Shown: positions 13,648 through 31,660 of the stretch, piece by piece
How positions within the stretch are numbered: the first letter of the stretch is position 1
Layout: each line of letters opens with the position of its first letter
NCBI RefSeq assembly: GCF_000147695.2
Contig: NC_015958.1
Coordinates: 598,501 to 662,500, forward strand
Source of the DNA: Thermoanaerobacter wiegelii Rt8.B1
GTDB lineage: Bacteria > Bacillota > Thermoanaerobacteria > Thermoanaerobacterales > Thermoanaerobacteraceae
Direction: 5' to 3'
DNA length: 64,000 bases
The notes under the pieces: generated by a model
What the model was told of the DNA's origin: nothing
The model's input: the letters and a program-made list of their open reading frames with translations, nothing else
Databases searched by the model: none
Made by a program: the position numbers and the translations under genes

Positions 13648-13927
13648 ACTGTAGACAAACTTTCGGAAATAGGATATTTTGCAATCGGTGCGACTTGTGA
13701 CAAAGCGATAACAAAACTTAATGAGACCGAGGGTGGAGGCAGGGCCGAAGCCAAGGATGGCGGAGGCGGGCACTAAGACAAGGATGTCGAATGTGCCCGA
13801 CGCTACGGAACCCGAGGGTCGAGTTTAGCTTTGTCGCTTTGGAACACTGGAGTGACGATGCAAAATATCCTATTTAAAAAATTTTTTACTTTGTCAACAA
13901 ACTGGCACTCCAGAGGGAGTGTTTTTT
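13648..13927 (+). ncRNA. Structured RNA, copy 1, probably the raiA motif, upstream of hpf
   Basis: GC-rich block in AT-rich surroundings with no credible reading frame. Nested long-range pairing: GACAAA (13654-13659) with TTTGTC (13890-13895); AGGATATTTTGCA (13671-13683) with TGCAAAATATCCT (13859-13871); GACAAAGC with GCTTTGTC inside. The core GGGCCGAAGCCAAGGA is followed by CGGGCAC and GTGCCCG enclosing a GACA/TGTC hairpin. It ends in a rho-independent terminator at 13906-13927. A second copy at 18521 keeps the core and changes both sides of the helices. Position directly before the hibernation factor gene matches the published raiA RNA motif; the Rfam match itself was not computed. Confidence 0.78.
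13904..13927 (+). terminator. Terminator ending structured RNA copy 1
   Basis: CACTCC and GGAGTG pair around a short loop, followed by six T. A related hairpin (CACTC and GAGTG, 13628-13645) sits at the 5' edge of the RNA, just after the ATPase stop codon. Confidence 0.85.
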
Positions 13928-14680: not shown

Positions 14681-15322
14681 ATGGGTGAAATAACAAAAGA
14701 TACGGTAAATTCGATGGAAGGATACATAAACAAAATTCAAGGAGTATTATCAAACAGAGTTGTTGTAGAAAATGGTGAAATAACTGAAATCCATGTGTTA
14801 GCTGACAGCACAAGGAATGCGAAGCAGATTGCACGAGATGTGCAATCTGTTATAATGGCGCAATTTGGAATTGATATAAATCACAAGATTGTCAGTGTTG
14901 CGCAAATTGATACTGGAGAAAAACTCCAAGGAGAACACAGGCTTGTCTTTTCAAGCTATTCGTTTATAAATAATGGTCTTACCAGTGAAGCGAGAGTTAT
15001 CCTCACAAGAGGCGATGAGATTTTTGAAGGATATGCTGAAGGGCCTAATACTGCAAGTAATAAGTATAGAATAATTGCCAATGCTACACTGGACTCTATT
15101 TCTAAATTGATTCCCAAAAACCATTTATTTTTGTTGGAAGATGTCGATATATTTAATATAGCGAAAAGCAGGATAATAGTTGTAGGGGTTACTCATGTGA
15201 CAAATAACCAAGAGGACCTCCTTACCGGGTCTTGTCTTATAAAGAAAGATGAAGGGGAGGCTGTGGTAAAAGCCACATTGGACGCCGTCAATAGGCGCGT
15301 CATGTCGATCACATCTCTTTAG
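14681..15322 (+). CDS. Conserved hypothetical protein with two alpha/beta halves
   Basis: I do not recognise the family with confidence. 213 aa, no signal peptide or membrane helix. The N-terminal part (about 15-75) reads as beta-alpha-beta, VVVENGEITEIHVLAD then AKQIARDVQSVIMAQFGIDI; the second half (about 85-205) looks like a similar or related alpha/beta module with VGVTHV and LLTGSCLI strands. A cytoplasmic small-molecule-binding or protein-protein role is possible but unproven. Start chosen at the ATG at 14681; a GTG nine bases upstream is the alternative. Followed by the attenuator-like element and HD-GYP gene. Confidence 0.7.
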   Translation: MGEITKDTVNSMEGYINKIQGVLSNRVVVENGEITEIHVLADSTRNAKQIARDVQSVIMAQFGIDINHKIVSVAQIDTGEKLQGEHRLVFSSYSFINNGLTSEARVILTRGDEIFEGYAEGPNTASNKYRIIANATLDSISKLIPKNHLFLLEDVDIFNIAKSRIIVVGVTHVTNNQEDLLTGSCLIKKDEGEAVVKATLDAVNRRVMSITSL

Positions 15323-15328
15323 TTTTTT

Positions 15329-15520
15329 AACGCCCAAACCGCTTAAAAACCGTTTAGCGTAGCGTCGCCTGAAGCCTAAGGGCAGAAGAGCTATTACAGC
15401 AAAGGAGGGTTTCAGGATGAATAAAGCGACACTTATAAAAATATTATTGGTTTTAATGGCACTTGCATTAGCTGGAGGTGCAAATGTTGCTTGGGGTTAA
15501 GCGGTTTGAGGTGTTTTTTT
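15329..15520 (+). promoter_or_regulatory. Candidate translation-coupled attenuator before the HD-GYP gene
   Basis: AACGCCCAAACCGCTTAA (15329-15346) pairs with TTAAGCGGTTTGAGGTGTT (15497-15515) with one bulge and one G-U, followed by seven T: a terminator whose arms are 150 bases apart. The left arm can instead form a local hairpin, CGCTTAAA with TTTAGCG (15353-15359). A third helix, CCTGAAGCC (15368-15376) with GGTTTCAGG (15408-15416), encloses the ribosome binding site of a 27-codon reading frame whose stop codon lies in the right terminator arm. I could not match it to a known riboswitch. Confidence 0.5.
15417..15500 (+). CDS. 27-aa hydrophobic leader peptide or microprotein
   Basis: Preceded by AAAGGAGG at 15402-15408, nine bases before the ATG, the best ribosome binding site in this gap. 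The peptide begins MNKATLIKILLV and ends GGANVAWG: a Lys-containing N-terminus, one hydrophobic segment and a small-residue end, like a short signal peptide or single-span microprotein. It has no Cys, so it is not an AgrD-type cyclic peptide. Its stop codon is inside the right arm of the long-range terminator helix, which suggests it is a leader whose translation governs read-through. Expression is unproven. Confidence 0.5.
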   Translation: MNKATLIKILLVLMALALAGGANVAWG

Positions 15521-15543: not shown

Positions 15544-16818
15544 ATGCTTAACAAAAGAGTAAAAATATACATTTCTATAATAATAACAGTGGGATTATTT
15601 TTTATTATATATTCGATGTTACATATTTCTACAAATCAAATAATAGACATAATTTGGTTTGGCTTTTTTGCTGCTTTGGCTGAATCAATGCCATTATATG
15701 TAACAAAAGAATTAACTGTATCTGTTGCTTTTACAATTGATTTAATGGCAGTGCTTATTTTTGGACCTTATGAAGGTTCTTTAATTGCAGCTATAGGTGT
15801 GGGATTTCAGGTTGGCAAGTACATGGATGGGAAAATAAGACATATTTTTAATTTCCCATATTATAAGACTTTATTTAATATATCTCAATTAGCCCTGAGT
15901 GTTGGGATTGGTGGATTAATATATAGATATAGTGGTGGAGTAAGTACAACTTATATATATCCTAAATATATTCTTCCTGCACTGTTAGCAGCAATAACAT
16001 ATTACTTATTAAATACTATTATGGTAGCTGTATTAGTGTCTTTGCTAACTAATAGACGAATTAAATATGTCTTAACAAAAGATTTTAAATGGATGGTTCC
16101 TAATTTTTTCTTTCTTGCCTTTTTAGGCATAGTTATGTCAGAGGCTTTTATAAGAATAGGCTATGTAAGTCTTATTTTACTTTTTATACCTCTTTTAATG
16201 ATTCGCTATATGTTTAAGCTTTACATGGACTCAAAGCAGTCTTATTATGACACAATAAATGTGCTTGTAAAGGCTCTTGATGCAAAGGACAAGTATACAG
16301 CAGGTCATTCAAAAAACGTAGAAAAAATTGCAGCTTTACTCTGCAGAGAATTTGGTTTTAGTGAGTCTCACACTGAAATGGTGAGGATTGCAGCCCTTTT
16401 ACATGACATAGGAAAGATTGGAGTAAAGGAAGAGGTTTTAAATAAGCCAGGGAAGTTAACTGATGAAGAATTAAGCATAATAAAAGAACATCCTCAAAAA
16501 GGTTATGAAATATTGAAAGAAGTCCCTACGTTAAAAGAGGCTTCTCTGTGGGTAAAATACCATCACGAGTGGTATAACGGAAGTGGATATCCCGATGGGA
16601 TAAAAGGTGACGAAATACCATTGGAAGCTCAGATACTTTCTCTCGCAGACGTTTTCGATGCGTTGGTTTCAGACAGGCCCTATCGAAAGGCTTTTTCCCA
16701 AGAGGGAGCATATGAAATAATTGTAGGAAATGAAGGGACGCAGTTTAGCCCTAAAATAATAAATGCTTTCAAAAAAGCTTTTGAAAAACACAGGGAGGAA
16801 TTTAAGCATGATATTTGA
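15544..16818 (+). CDS. Membrane-bound HD-GYP domain phosphodiesterase
   Basis: 424 aa. Residues 1 to about 225 form six or more membrane helices; residues about 235-424 are an HD-GYP domain, usually a cyclic-di-GMP phosphodiesterase. Visible motifs: AGHSKNVEKIA, the HD pair in LLHDIGKIG, and HHEWYNGSGYPDG containing GYP, then SLADVFDALVSDRPYR. All metal ligands expected for activity seem present. AGGAGG nine bases before the ATG. The membrane part may sense an external or membrane signal. It overlaps the next gene by 11 bases and stands behind the attenuator-like leader. Confidence 0.9.
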   Translation: MLNKRVKIYISIIITVGLFFIIYSMLHISTNQIIDIIWFGFFAALAESMPLYVTKELTVSVAFTIDLMAVLIFGPYEGSLIAAIGVGFQVGKYMDGKIRHIFNFPYYKTLFNISQLALSVGIGGLIYRYSGGVSTTYIYPKYILPALLAAITYYLLNTIMVAVLVSLLTNRRIKYVLTKDFKWMVPNFFFLAFLGIVMSEAFIRIGYVSLILLFIPLLMIRYMFKLYMDSKQSYYDTINVLVKALDAKDKYTAGHSKNVEKIAALLCREFGFSESHTEMVRIAALLHDIGKIGVKEEVLNKPGKLTDEELSIIKEHPQKGYEILKEVPTLKEASLWVKYHHEWYNGSGYPDGIKGDEIPLEAQILSLADVFDALVSDRPYRKAFSQEGAYEIIVGNEGTQFSPKIINAFKKAFEKHREEFKHDI

Positions 16819-17383
16819 TTCATTAGGTGCTTCTCTAATTTACGGAACTTTAAGAAGAGGGAAAATCAGTGGAATCGCTGATATTGATATAAAAAAGCCC
16901 AGCCTTTTTATAGCGGCATTTGCCTTGGAGTTTAGCATGCTAAACCTTGCTAACAAATTTCATGTGATTATGGAATACCGGTCTTATATACACTTCTTTG
17001 TATATCTTTTGCTTTTCCTAGGATTGTGGTACAATAGAAATAACAAGTATTTTAGGATAATAAGTGTGGGAGTGCTTTTAAACTTTATTGTAATATTTGC
17101 CAATGGAGGAAGAATGCCTGTATCCATTGATGCTTTAAAGGCAGCGGGACTTAATAATCTCATACCAGAGCTTCAGGCAAATAAAATTGCTACCCATCAA
17201 GTTTTGACAAATTCTACACGGTTAAAATTTTTAGCAGATGTTTTAGTGTTACCGAAACCTTATCCACTGCCAAAAGCCTTCAGCATAGGAGATTTTATAA
17301 TGGCAACAGGTACATTTTTACTTGTTACAAATGCAATGCTTAAAAAGGTGAAGAGTCATGACGGCACAAGAAAGAAGGAATAA
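16808..17383 (+). CDS. DUF5317-type membrane protein
   Basis: 191 aa with about four or five hydrophobic segments. It contains the conserved run IFANGGRMPVS and a C-terminal amphipathic part with KPYPLPKAFSIGDF, which I associate with the DUF5317 family; function unknown. The ATG at 16808 overlaps the HD-GYP stop and follows GGGAGGA, so the pair is coupled. It overlaps niaR by 26 bases. Cotranscription with an HD-GYP protein suggests it works in or reports to the same membrane signalling system (inference). Confidence 0.75.
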   Translation: MIFDSLGASLIYGTLRRGKISGIADIDIKKPSLFIAAFALEFSMLNLANKFHVIMEYRSYIHFFVYLLLFLGLWYNRNNKYFRIISVGVLLNFIVIFANGGRMPVSIDALKAAGLNNLIPELQANKIATHQVLTNSTRLKFLADVLVLPKPYPLPKAFSIGDFIMATGTFLLVTNAMLKKVKSHDGTRKKE

Positions 17384-18483: not shown

Positions 18484-18520
18484 CCTTTTAAAAAGGAAAC
18501 GTCTCATTTTGAGATGTTCT

Positions 18521-18812
18521 CAGTCTGTAGACAAACTCTTTATGATGTATTGGCATTTTGCATAAGTGAAGCGACTTGACAGAGCAGCAACTAAACTTAG
18601 CGAGACCGACAGACGAAGGCGGGGCCGAAGCCAAGGAGGGCGGAGGCGGGCACCTGAGACAGGGATGTCGAATGTGCCCGGAACCCCGCCTGAGTCAGAG
18701 GTCGAGCTTTAGTTTAGTCTGTGATGTCACCTGGAGCGAACGATGCAAAATGCCAATAAAAATGGAACTTTGTCTAAGACAGAGAATGCATCATTTTGAG
18801 ACGTTCTTTTTT
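18521..18812 (+). ncRNA. Structured RNA, copy 2, probably the raiA motif, upstream of secA
   Basis: Second copy of the element at 13648. Shared: CTGTAGACAAACT at the 5' end, GGGGCCGAAGCCAAGGA, GGCGGAGGCGGGCAC, GGATGTCGAATGTGCCCG and GATGCAAAAT. Pairings: GACAAA (18530-18535) with TTTGTC (18769-18774); ATTGGCATTTTGCA (18549-18562) with TGCAAAATGCCAAT (18744-18757), where both arms differ from copy 1 yet remain complementary; AGGCGGGG (18617-18624) with CCCCGCCT (18684-18691). An outer pair AACGTCTCA (18498-18506) with TGAGACGTT (18797-18805) leads into a T tract. The 83-codon frame inside is not credible as protein. Confidence 0.78.
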
Positions 18813-31445: not shown

Positions 31446-31475
31446 AAAATTAAAATTGAATAAGATGAAGGTAAA

Positions 31476-31660
31476 TCTTCGGGGCAGGGTGAAATTCCCG
31501 ACCGGCGGTATAGCCCGCGAGCCGCGCATGCGGTCGATTTGGTGAAATTCCAAAGCCGACAGTGAAAGTCTGGAGGGGAGAAGATTTTCTTTTTGTGCCT
31601 ATTTTTGCAAAATAAATCACAAAAAATCCTGAAGATTTATCTTCAGGATTTTTTTAGTAA
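31476..31660 (+). promoter_or_regulatory. FMN riboswitch (RFN element) with terminator
   Basis: Aptamer from about 31476 to 31585: GGGGCAGGGTGAAATTCCC, GACCGGCGGTATAGCCCGC, GGTGAAATTCCAAAGCCGAC and AGTGAAAGTCTGGA, the conserved RFN blocks in order, closed by CTTC/GAAG at the base. A rho-independent terminator follows (AATCCTGAAGAT with ATCTTCAGGATT, then T7, 31627-31657). The GAAGAT in the terminator can compete with the aptamer base helix. FMN binding should stop transcription of ribU. Confidence 0.97.

Follow-up and report, generated by a model that had tools for sequence, protein, structure and literature searches.

A gene for a 27-residue peptide and the HD-GYP gene that follows it in Thermoanaerobacter wiegelii Rt8.B1 probably form a cognate pair of peptide and receptor that governs the breakdown of c-di-GMP and is wrapped in a regulatory RNA. 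This reading is drawn from comparative sequence analysis: the peptide is conserved across many Bacillota, the order of genes around it is constant, and its last residues vary together with the sensor domain of the adjacent HD-GYP protein. The locus lies in the window, by which we mean the whole 64,000-nucleotide stretch of DNA that was analysed, and its parts are listed in Table 1.

Table 1. Parts of the locus, with positions counted from the first nucleotide of the window
Feature	Position	Strand	Remarks
P2, protein of unknown function	14681..15322	+	Immediately 5' of the leader RNA; homologs upstream in nearly all peptide loci
5' arm of the long-range closing helix/putative terminator, AACGCCCAAACCGCTTAA	15329..15346	+	Partner 15497-15515; covaries across Bacillota
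Leader RNA domain, diverged member of covariance model R2	15353..15412	+	Covariance-model match
AGCGTAGCG, tandem AGCG motif of the leader	15356..15364	+	AGCGNAGC tandem in 52/65 leaders
Anti-Shine-Dalgarno strand, CCTGAAGCC	15368..15376	+	Pairs with 15408-15416
Shine-Dalgarno AGGAGG and GGTTTCAGG strand	15403..15416	+	GGTTTCAGG pairs with 15368-15376
Precursor of the 27-aa peptide, MNKATLIKILLVLMALALAGGANVAWG	15417..15500	+	Conserved family; pN/pS 0.28 over codons 2-23
Variable C-terminal codons 24-27 (VAWG)	15486..15497	+	Proposed specificity part of the putative mature NVAWG
3' arm of the closing helix (15497-15515, TTAAGCGGTTTGAGGTGTT) and T-run	15497..15520	+	Pairing, T enrichment
MASE9-HD-GYP phosphodiesterase gene (predicted)	15544..16818	+	Sensor (about aa 1-233) hypervariable between peptide types; catalytic part conserved
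DUF5317 membrane protein gene	16808..17383	+	Pfam PF17248, 1.7e-49

The peptide family and its partner genes

The peptide ORF runs from an ATG at 15417 through 27 codons to a TAA stop codon at 15498-15500, and is preceded by the Shine-Dalgarno (SD) sequence AGGAGG at 15403-15408. Members of the family are characterized by a basic start, a hydrophobic core of about 15 residues, the motif LAGGA and a W-containing tail; no Cys occurs in the aligned peptides. The Thermoanaerobacter peptide resembles a bare signal peptide, ending in ALAGGA, followed by a tail of 4-5 residues, NVAWG. Purifying selection acts on codons 2-23 (pN/pS 0.28, compared with 0.70 for codons 24-27). Pfam and NCBIfam hold no entry for the peptide, and no NCBIfam match exceeded the cut-off.

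The initial annotation had described a 27-codon frame with a strong SD inside terminator arms spaced by 150 nt and had proposed conservation in relatives as a check. The arrangement is present, and it is conserved far beyond Thermoanaerobacter. The region was found by DNA search in 18 of 60 relatives, all of the same family, and a peptide profile search reached two more families of the order. The wider sample comprised 398 Bacillota genomes, one per species; peptide matches occurred in 55 of them, and a diversified profile extended this to 102, of which 80 are strong small-ORF matches and underlie the figure of about 80/398 used here. The closing helix proposed around the ORF likewise covaries over 65 loci.

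All inspected loci, which come from dozens of families, have an HD-GYP gene with both HD and GYP motifs that starts shortly 3' of the peptide. By these motifs, the window gene belongs to the HD-GYP c-di-GMP phosphodiesterases and is a predicted enzyme. Its product matches Pfam HD_5 (1e-40) and MASE9 (2e-10), and MASE9 was found in 27 of 30 homologous sensors. A single-sequence AlphaFold model of the protein was unusable (pLDDT 41.6).

The next gene, DUF5317, lies directly 3' of HD-GYP in all 16 loci inspected. It is present in 78 of the 80 peptide genomes (Fisher p 9e-52) and stands downstream of the peptide in 70 of them; its product might take part in processing, export or signal transfer. 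In two loci of family f15 (L189 and L197), a second HD-GYP gene lies between the peptide-linked HD-GYP gene and DUF5317. Another DUF5317 copy in the window's own genome (G000:C1:839060-839305) is broken and contains an internal TGA, and two control genomes, those of Thermotoga maritima and Thermus composti, have DUF5317 as well.

P2 homologs are found in 159/398 Bacillota genomes, often near raiA/HPF and secA. The window copy matches no Pfam family, and in some members the C-terminal part shows a weak likeness to LeuA_dimer (best E 8e-6). Nine P2 loci had no strong peptide match; two of them (L148 and L149) held diverged peptides (VKWLFNFMSLFLGRGGNYKW and ...FASSANFMWL) accompanied by HD-GYP, while no leader, peptide or HD-GYP adjoins P2 in the others. 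Structured-looking intergenic sequences of about 255 nt lie in the window before raiA/HPF (13650-13905) and before secA (18510-18760). They are copies of an interspersed element that has 45 matches in the same genome, about 25 of them long, and its similarity to the TwoAYGGAY RNA of Rfam is sub-threshold only.

Linked variation of the peptide tail and the sensor

In close relatives, P2, the leader, codons 1-23, the catalytic domain and DUF5317 are near-identical, and it is the tail and the MASE9 sensor that vary. Nucleotide identity falls from 95-100% to 47-70% between codon 24 and the end of the sensor and then returns to about 90% in several independent clades; the variable block was seen in at least six clades, and DUF5317, which lies outside it, is not hypervariable. 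One close pair illustrates the pattern, with identities of 100% for P2, 100% for peptide residues 1-23, 25% for residues 24-27, 80% for the sensor and 99% for the catalytic part. Another pair (L131/L133), with the tails NARW and STRWV, is identical in P2 (100%) and nearly so in the catalytic part (97%), and the sensors share 58%.

This association was quantified in 128 close pairs from 17 clades. The sensor lagged behind the catalytic part by 3.2 points where the tails were identical, thus mostly keeping pace with it, and by 21.0 points where they differed; none of 20,000 within-clade permutations was as extreme. The relationship is also graded (Spearman 0.40, 0/5,000 permutations). A hypervariable, linked tail and sensor between conserved flanks is the pattern of pherotype systems, and it suggests that the two form a pheromone-receptor-like specificity cassette. 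A possible signalling role of the peptide towards the HD-GYP sensor had been offered initially as one option among several, and it has become the best-supported part of that proposal.

Physical linkage during recombination contributes to the association, tail and sensor being neighbours. A functional relationship is nevertheless favoured over linkage alone, because the boundary recurs at the proposed mature peptide and W is retained in the variable tails. The sole same-species genome compared has an identical tail, and a sample with one genome per species gives no view of polymorphism within species.

Co-variation of tail and sensor is compatible with any direct contact, including that of a private microprotein that stays in the membrane and binds MASE9 as a subunit or inhibitor, with neither secretion nor cell-cell signalling. 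The hydrophobic core and the constant gene neighbourhood agree with such a role. We nevertheless regard it as rather unlikely: the 23 N-terminal residues are strictly conserved and variability sets in only after LAGGA, which resembles a signal peptide with a mature tail, and entire allelic blocks of old divergence have been replaced, a pattern typical of specificity in signalling and not of contacts between subunits.

The closing helix and the leader RNA

The closing helix has its 5' arm just past the P2 stop codon, starting at 15329, and in other loci it typically begins no more than about 10 nt from that codon. In the window, the arms AACGCCCAAACCGCTTAA and TTAAGCGGTTTGAGGTGTT lie 150 nt apart, T's follow the right arm, and the peptide stop codon (15498-15500) falls inside that arm (15497-15515), as initially described. 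The single-sequence fold of the window segment (-68.6 kcal/mol, z -1.83) is only mildly better than that of shuffled sequences. The helix is real despite this mild fold, because the comparative evidence of arm pairing is decisive: across 65 non-redundant loci, cognate arms outscore both shuffled (p 6e-34) and non-cognate ones (p 1e-12). Arm sequences differ widely by group with the pairing kept (GGGCCGAC/GTCGGCCC, GGACCGAC/GTCGGTCC, GACCGGCGG/CCGCCGGTC, and further GAAGCCGG/CCGGCTTC, GGCCGGTATAAA/TTTATACCGGCC, CACCCAAACCGCTTAA/TTAAGCGGTTTGAGGTG). In L131/L133 and L132, the helix has no clear form. The ten bases 3' of the G+C core contain 57% T against a background of 35%, and at least four T's in eight bases are found in 48 of 59 loci. 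The G+C-rich covarying helix and the T-run before HD-GYP thus have the features of an attenuator with an intrinsic terminator, and we treat them as a putative terminator.

It had been supposed that a ribosome finishing the peptide would block this terminator. Such a ribosome would extend to about 11 nt beyond the stop codon. The supposition may hold in Thermoanaerobacter, where the stop lies in the arm, but a ribosome over the right arm cannot be the general case, because the arm starts more than 10 nt past the stop in 31 of 59 loci; it overlaps the stop in only 7. A fixed stalling register is also unlikely, since the conserved GGA is followed by a varying number of residues before the stop (mostly 4-6). 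The fixed arrest motif and coverable arm of ribosome-stalling leaders of the TnaC type were not found.

Genomes of family f3 are informative in this respect. P2 and the leader RNA are absent from them, and the peptide, HD-GYP and DUF5317 are still together; promoter-like sequences, read by eye, stand before the ORF and again before HD-GYP, with a terminator hairpin between them. Because f3 keeps the peptide beside HD-GYP without the leader RNA, the peptide is more than a leader acting in cis. A locus in which the ribosome, by initiation or by stalling at the stop, controls the terminator and the peptide product is functionless would be in keeping with an ORF nested in a covarying terminator, with the stop codon within the right arm in Thermoanaerobacter and with a helix that covers the SD. 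It leaves the association of the last residues with sensor type unexplained, however, and it conflicts with f3, where the peptide is retained although leader and nested terminator are missing, and with the half of the loci in which a ribosome would not reach the right arm; we consider it quite improbable. The joint loss of P2 and the leader in f3 would also fit P2 as a candidate RNA-binding regulator of the leader, but P2 without the leader RNA is common.

Between the left arm and the SD sits an AGCG-rich hairpin domain. Leaders contain 3.35 AGCG copies on average, compared with 0.97 expected, and 64 of 65 have at least two; AGCGGA was observed 102 times against 4.85 expected. CsrA and TRAP were considered as readers of these repeats and rejected, as GGA is inconstant (AGCGAA and AGCGTA occur) and NAG triplets are too few. 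MAFFT/RNAalifold over the whole leader set gave no structure, owing to misalignment. A covariance model trained on four leaders and checked on others located about 45 further leaders at the expected place. In an alignment fitted to the model, and hence somewhat favourable, each of the 13 pairs within the leader has changed on both sides, and pairing in the P3 hairpin reaches 97%. In a whole-genome search of 66 genomes, the refined model found a single copy per genome in 34 and no match in genomes taken to be without the module. The leader coordinates compared directly precede the peptide, and the copies in G053 and G263 correspond to the diverged loci L148/L149. Judged by its match to R2 (17.8 bits; E 2.7e-4 in a leader-only search and 0.18 in a 171-kb search), the Thermoanaerobacter leader is a diverged, degenerate member of the model.

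The statement that no described riboswitch has such an arrangement agrees with Rfam 15, which holds no entry for the leader: neither the window nor 17 related loci gave a gathering-score match for it, and relaxed thresholds added sub-threshold hits only. The same scan of the window detected an FMN riboswitch at 31471-31589 (118 bits). Two further helices had been proposed. The one between CCTGAAGCC and GGTTTCAGG does cover the SD in the window; over all loci, SD sequestration has a combined p of 5e-7 and is clear in only 17 of 58, and universal sequestration by the 5' strand of P3 was accordingly dropped in favour of a clade-specific one. The other, an alternative partner for the left arm (CGCTTAAA with TTTAGCG), did not survive comparison, being absent from the sister genus, where the left arm ACCCAAACC is followed by TTTATTAAGCG, and from the next families.

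With its conserved loop and motif and its compensatory helices, the AGCG hairpin domain could itself bind a small molecule, such as c-di-GMP or a product, and switch the terminator or the SD, the peptide being secondary. We hold such a riboswitch to be unlikely, as the domain occurs once per genome and at this locus only, unlike most metabolite riboswitch classes, and has no Rfam match; it can, moreover, be compatible with a peptide-receptor pair. Some type I toxins share long-range 5'-3' pairing and SD cover, and a small hydrophobic peptide with both of these and a polymorphic partner recalls a toxin-immunity or bacteriocin pair, in which the peptide would be membrane-active and the sensor domain would provide immunity. 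The fusion of the sensor to an HD-GYP enzyme with conserved HD and GYP motifs and the single conserved chromosomal copy per genome make this highly improbable.

Proposed mechanism and comparison with known systems

For the peptide-receptor pair, we propose the following course of events. The P2 transcript would run on into the leader, where the AGCG domain and, in many clades, the SD-covering helix would gate translation of the precursor. The closing helix, which encloses both leader and ORF and has a run of T's behind it, would terminate most transcripts in vivo, and read-through would yield HD-GYP and DUF5317; the trigger of the RNA switch might be a ligand, a protein or translation. The NVAWG tail would probably be freed by a cut of the signal-peptidase type and exposed outside the cell. 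There, it may bind the neighbouring HD-GYP protein at its membrane MASE9 domain and set its phosphodiesterase activity, so that the cell, or its kin, would tune c-di-GMP in response to its own peptide.

The chances are about even that the locus represents a new class of cell-cell signalling, found in roughly one-fifth of the Bacillota genomes sampled. In this reading, a linear pheromone, 4-8 residues long and derived from a signal peptide, would directly gate a membrane HD-GYP c-di-GMP phosphodiesterase in a type-specific manner, and a nested leader RNA, itself of a new class, would couple translation of the precursor to receptor transcription. In the literature outside subscription papers and bioRxiv, no description was found of HD-GYP proteins with a leader peptide, pheromone, RNA motif, MASE9 or pherotype. 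If the proposal is true, the tails would be the first candidate ligands for MASE9 sensors, and peptide signalling would be tied directly to c-di-GMP without a kinase cascade. A role would be suggested for DUF5317, as well as for a new structured RNA. Biofilm, motility or sporulation could be tested for quorum-type control in many Clostridia and thermophiles by means of synthetic five-residue peptides predicted from sequence.

Among the closest known systems are ComX/ComP and AgrD/AgrC. In these systems, as here, a small precursor adjoins a membrane receptor, a role that HD-GYP would take at this locus, and a hypervariable tail and sensor domain between conserved flanks are exchanged as allelic blocks. 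The candidate receptor described here differs in its output, which is an HD-GYP c-di-GMP phosphodiesterase instead of a histidine kinase. The precursor differs as well, being similar to a bare signal peptide with a tail of 4-5 residues and lying within a nested leader/terminator RNA. It has no Cys and no adjoining modifying enzyme of the AgrB or ComQ type; the Cys/Ser (thio)lactone residue and AgrB partner of the cyclic AgrD lactones are not found, the neighbours being P2, HD-GYP and DUF5317. Phr and PapR of the RRNPP systems are, as is proposed for NVAWG, short linear peptides from the C-terminus of a signal-peptide-like precursor, but their receptors are cytoplasmic TPR proteins, while the candidate here is a membrane phosphodiesterase.

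In Thermotoga maritima, a density-dependent peptide raises exopolysaccharide production (Johnson et al. 2005, as related in PMC4187201 and PMC3022713). Like our proposal, this is a peptide signal in a thermophile with a biofilm-type output, and T. maritima, too, has DUF5317; the portions of these two accounts that concern the peptide describe no HD-GYP receptor. It is the nearest functional precedent in a thermophile, and the comparison made here is one of function. On the RNA side, the ilvB-II and odc1 uORF/attenuator motifs likewise have a conserved small ORF, together with its SD, embedded in an RNA structure upstream of the gene under control (PMC11109978, PMC8632094). Those motifs are read as cis-regulators, whereas the peptide described here changes together with the downstream protein and, in f3, is retained although the RNA is missing.
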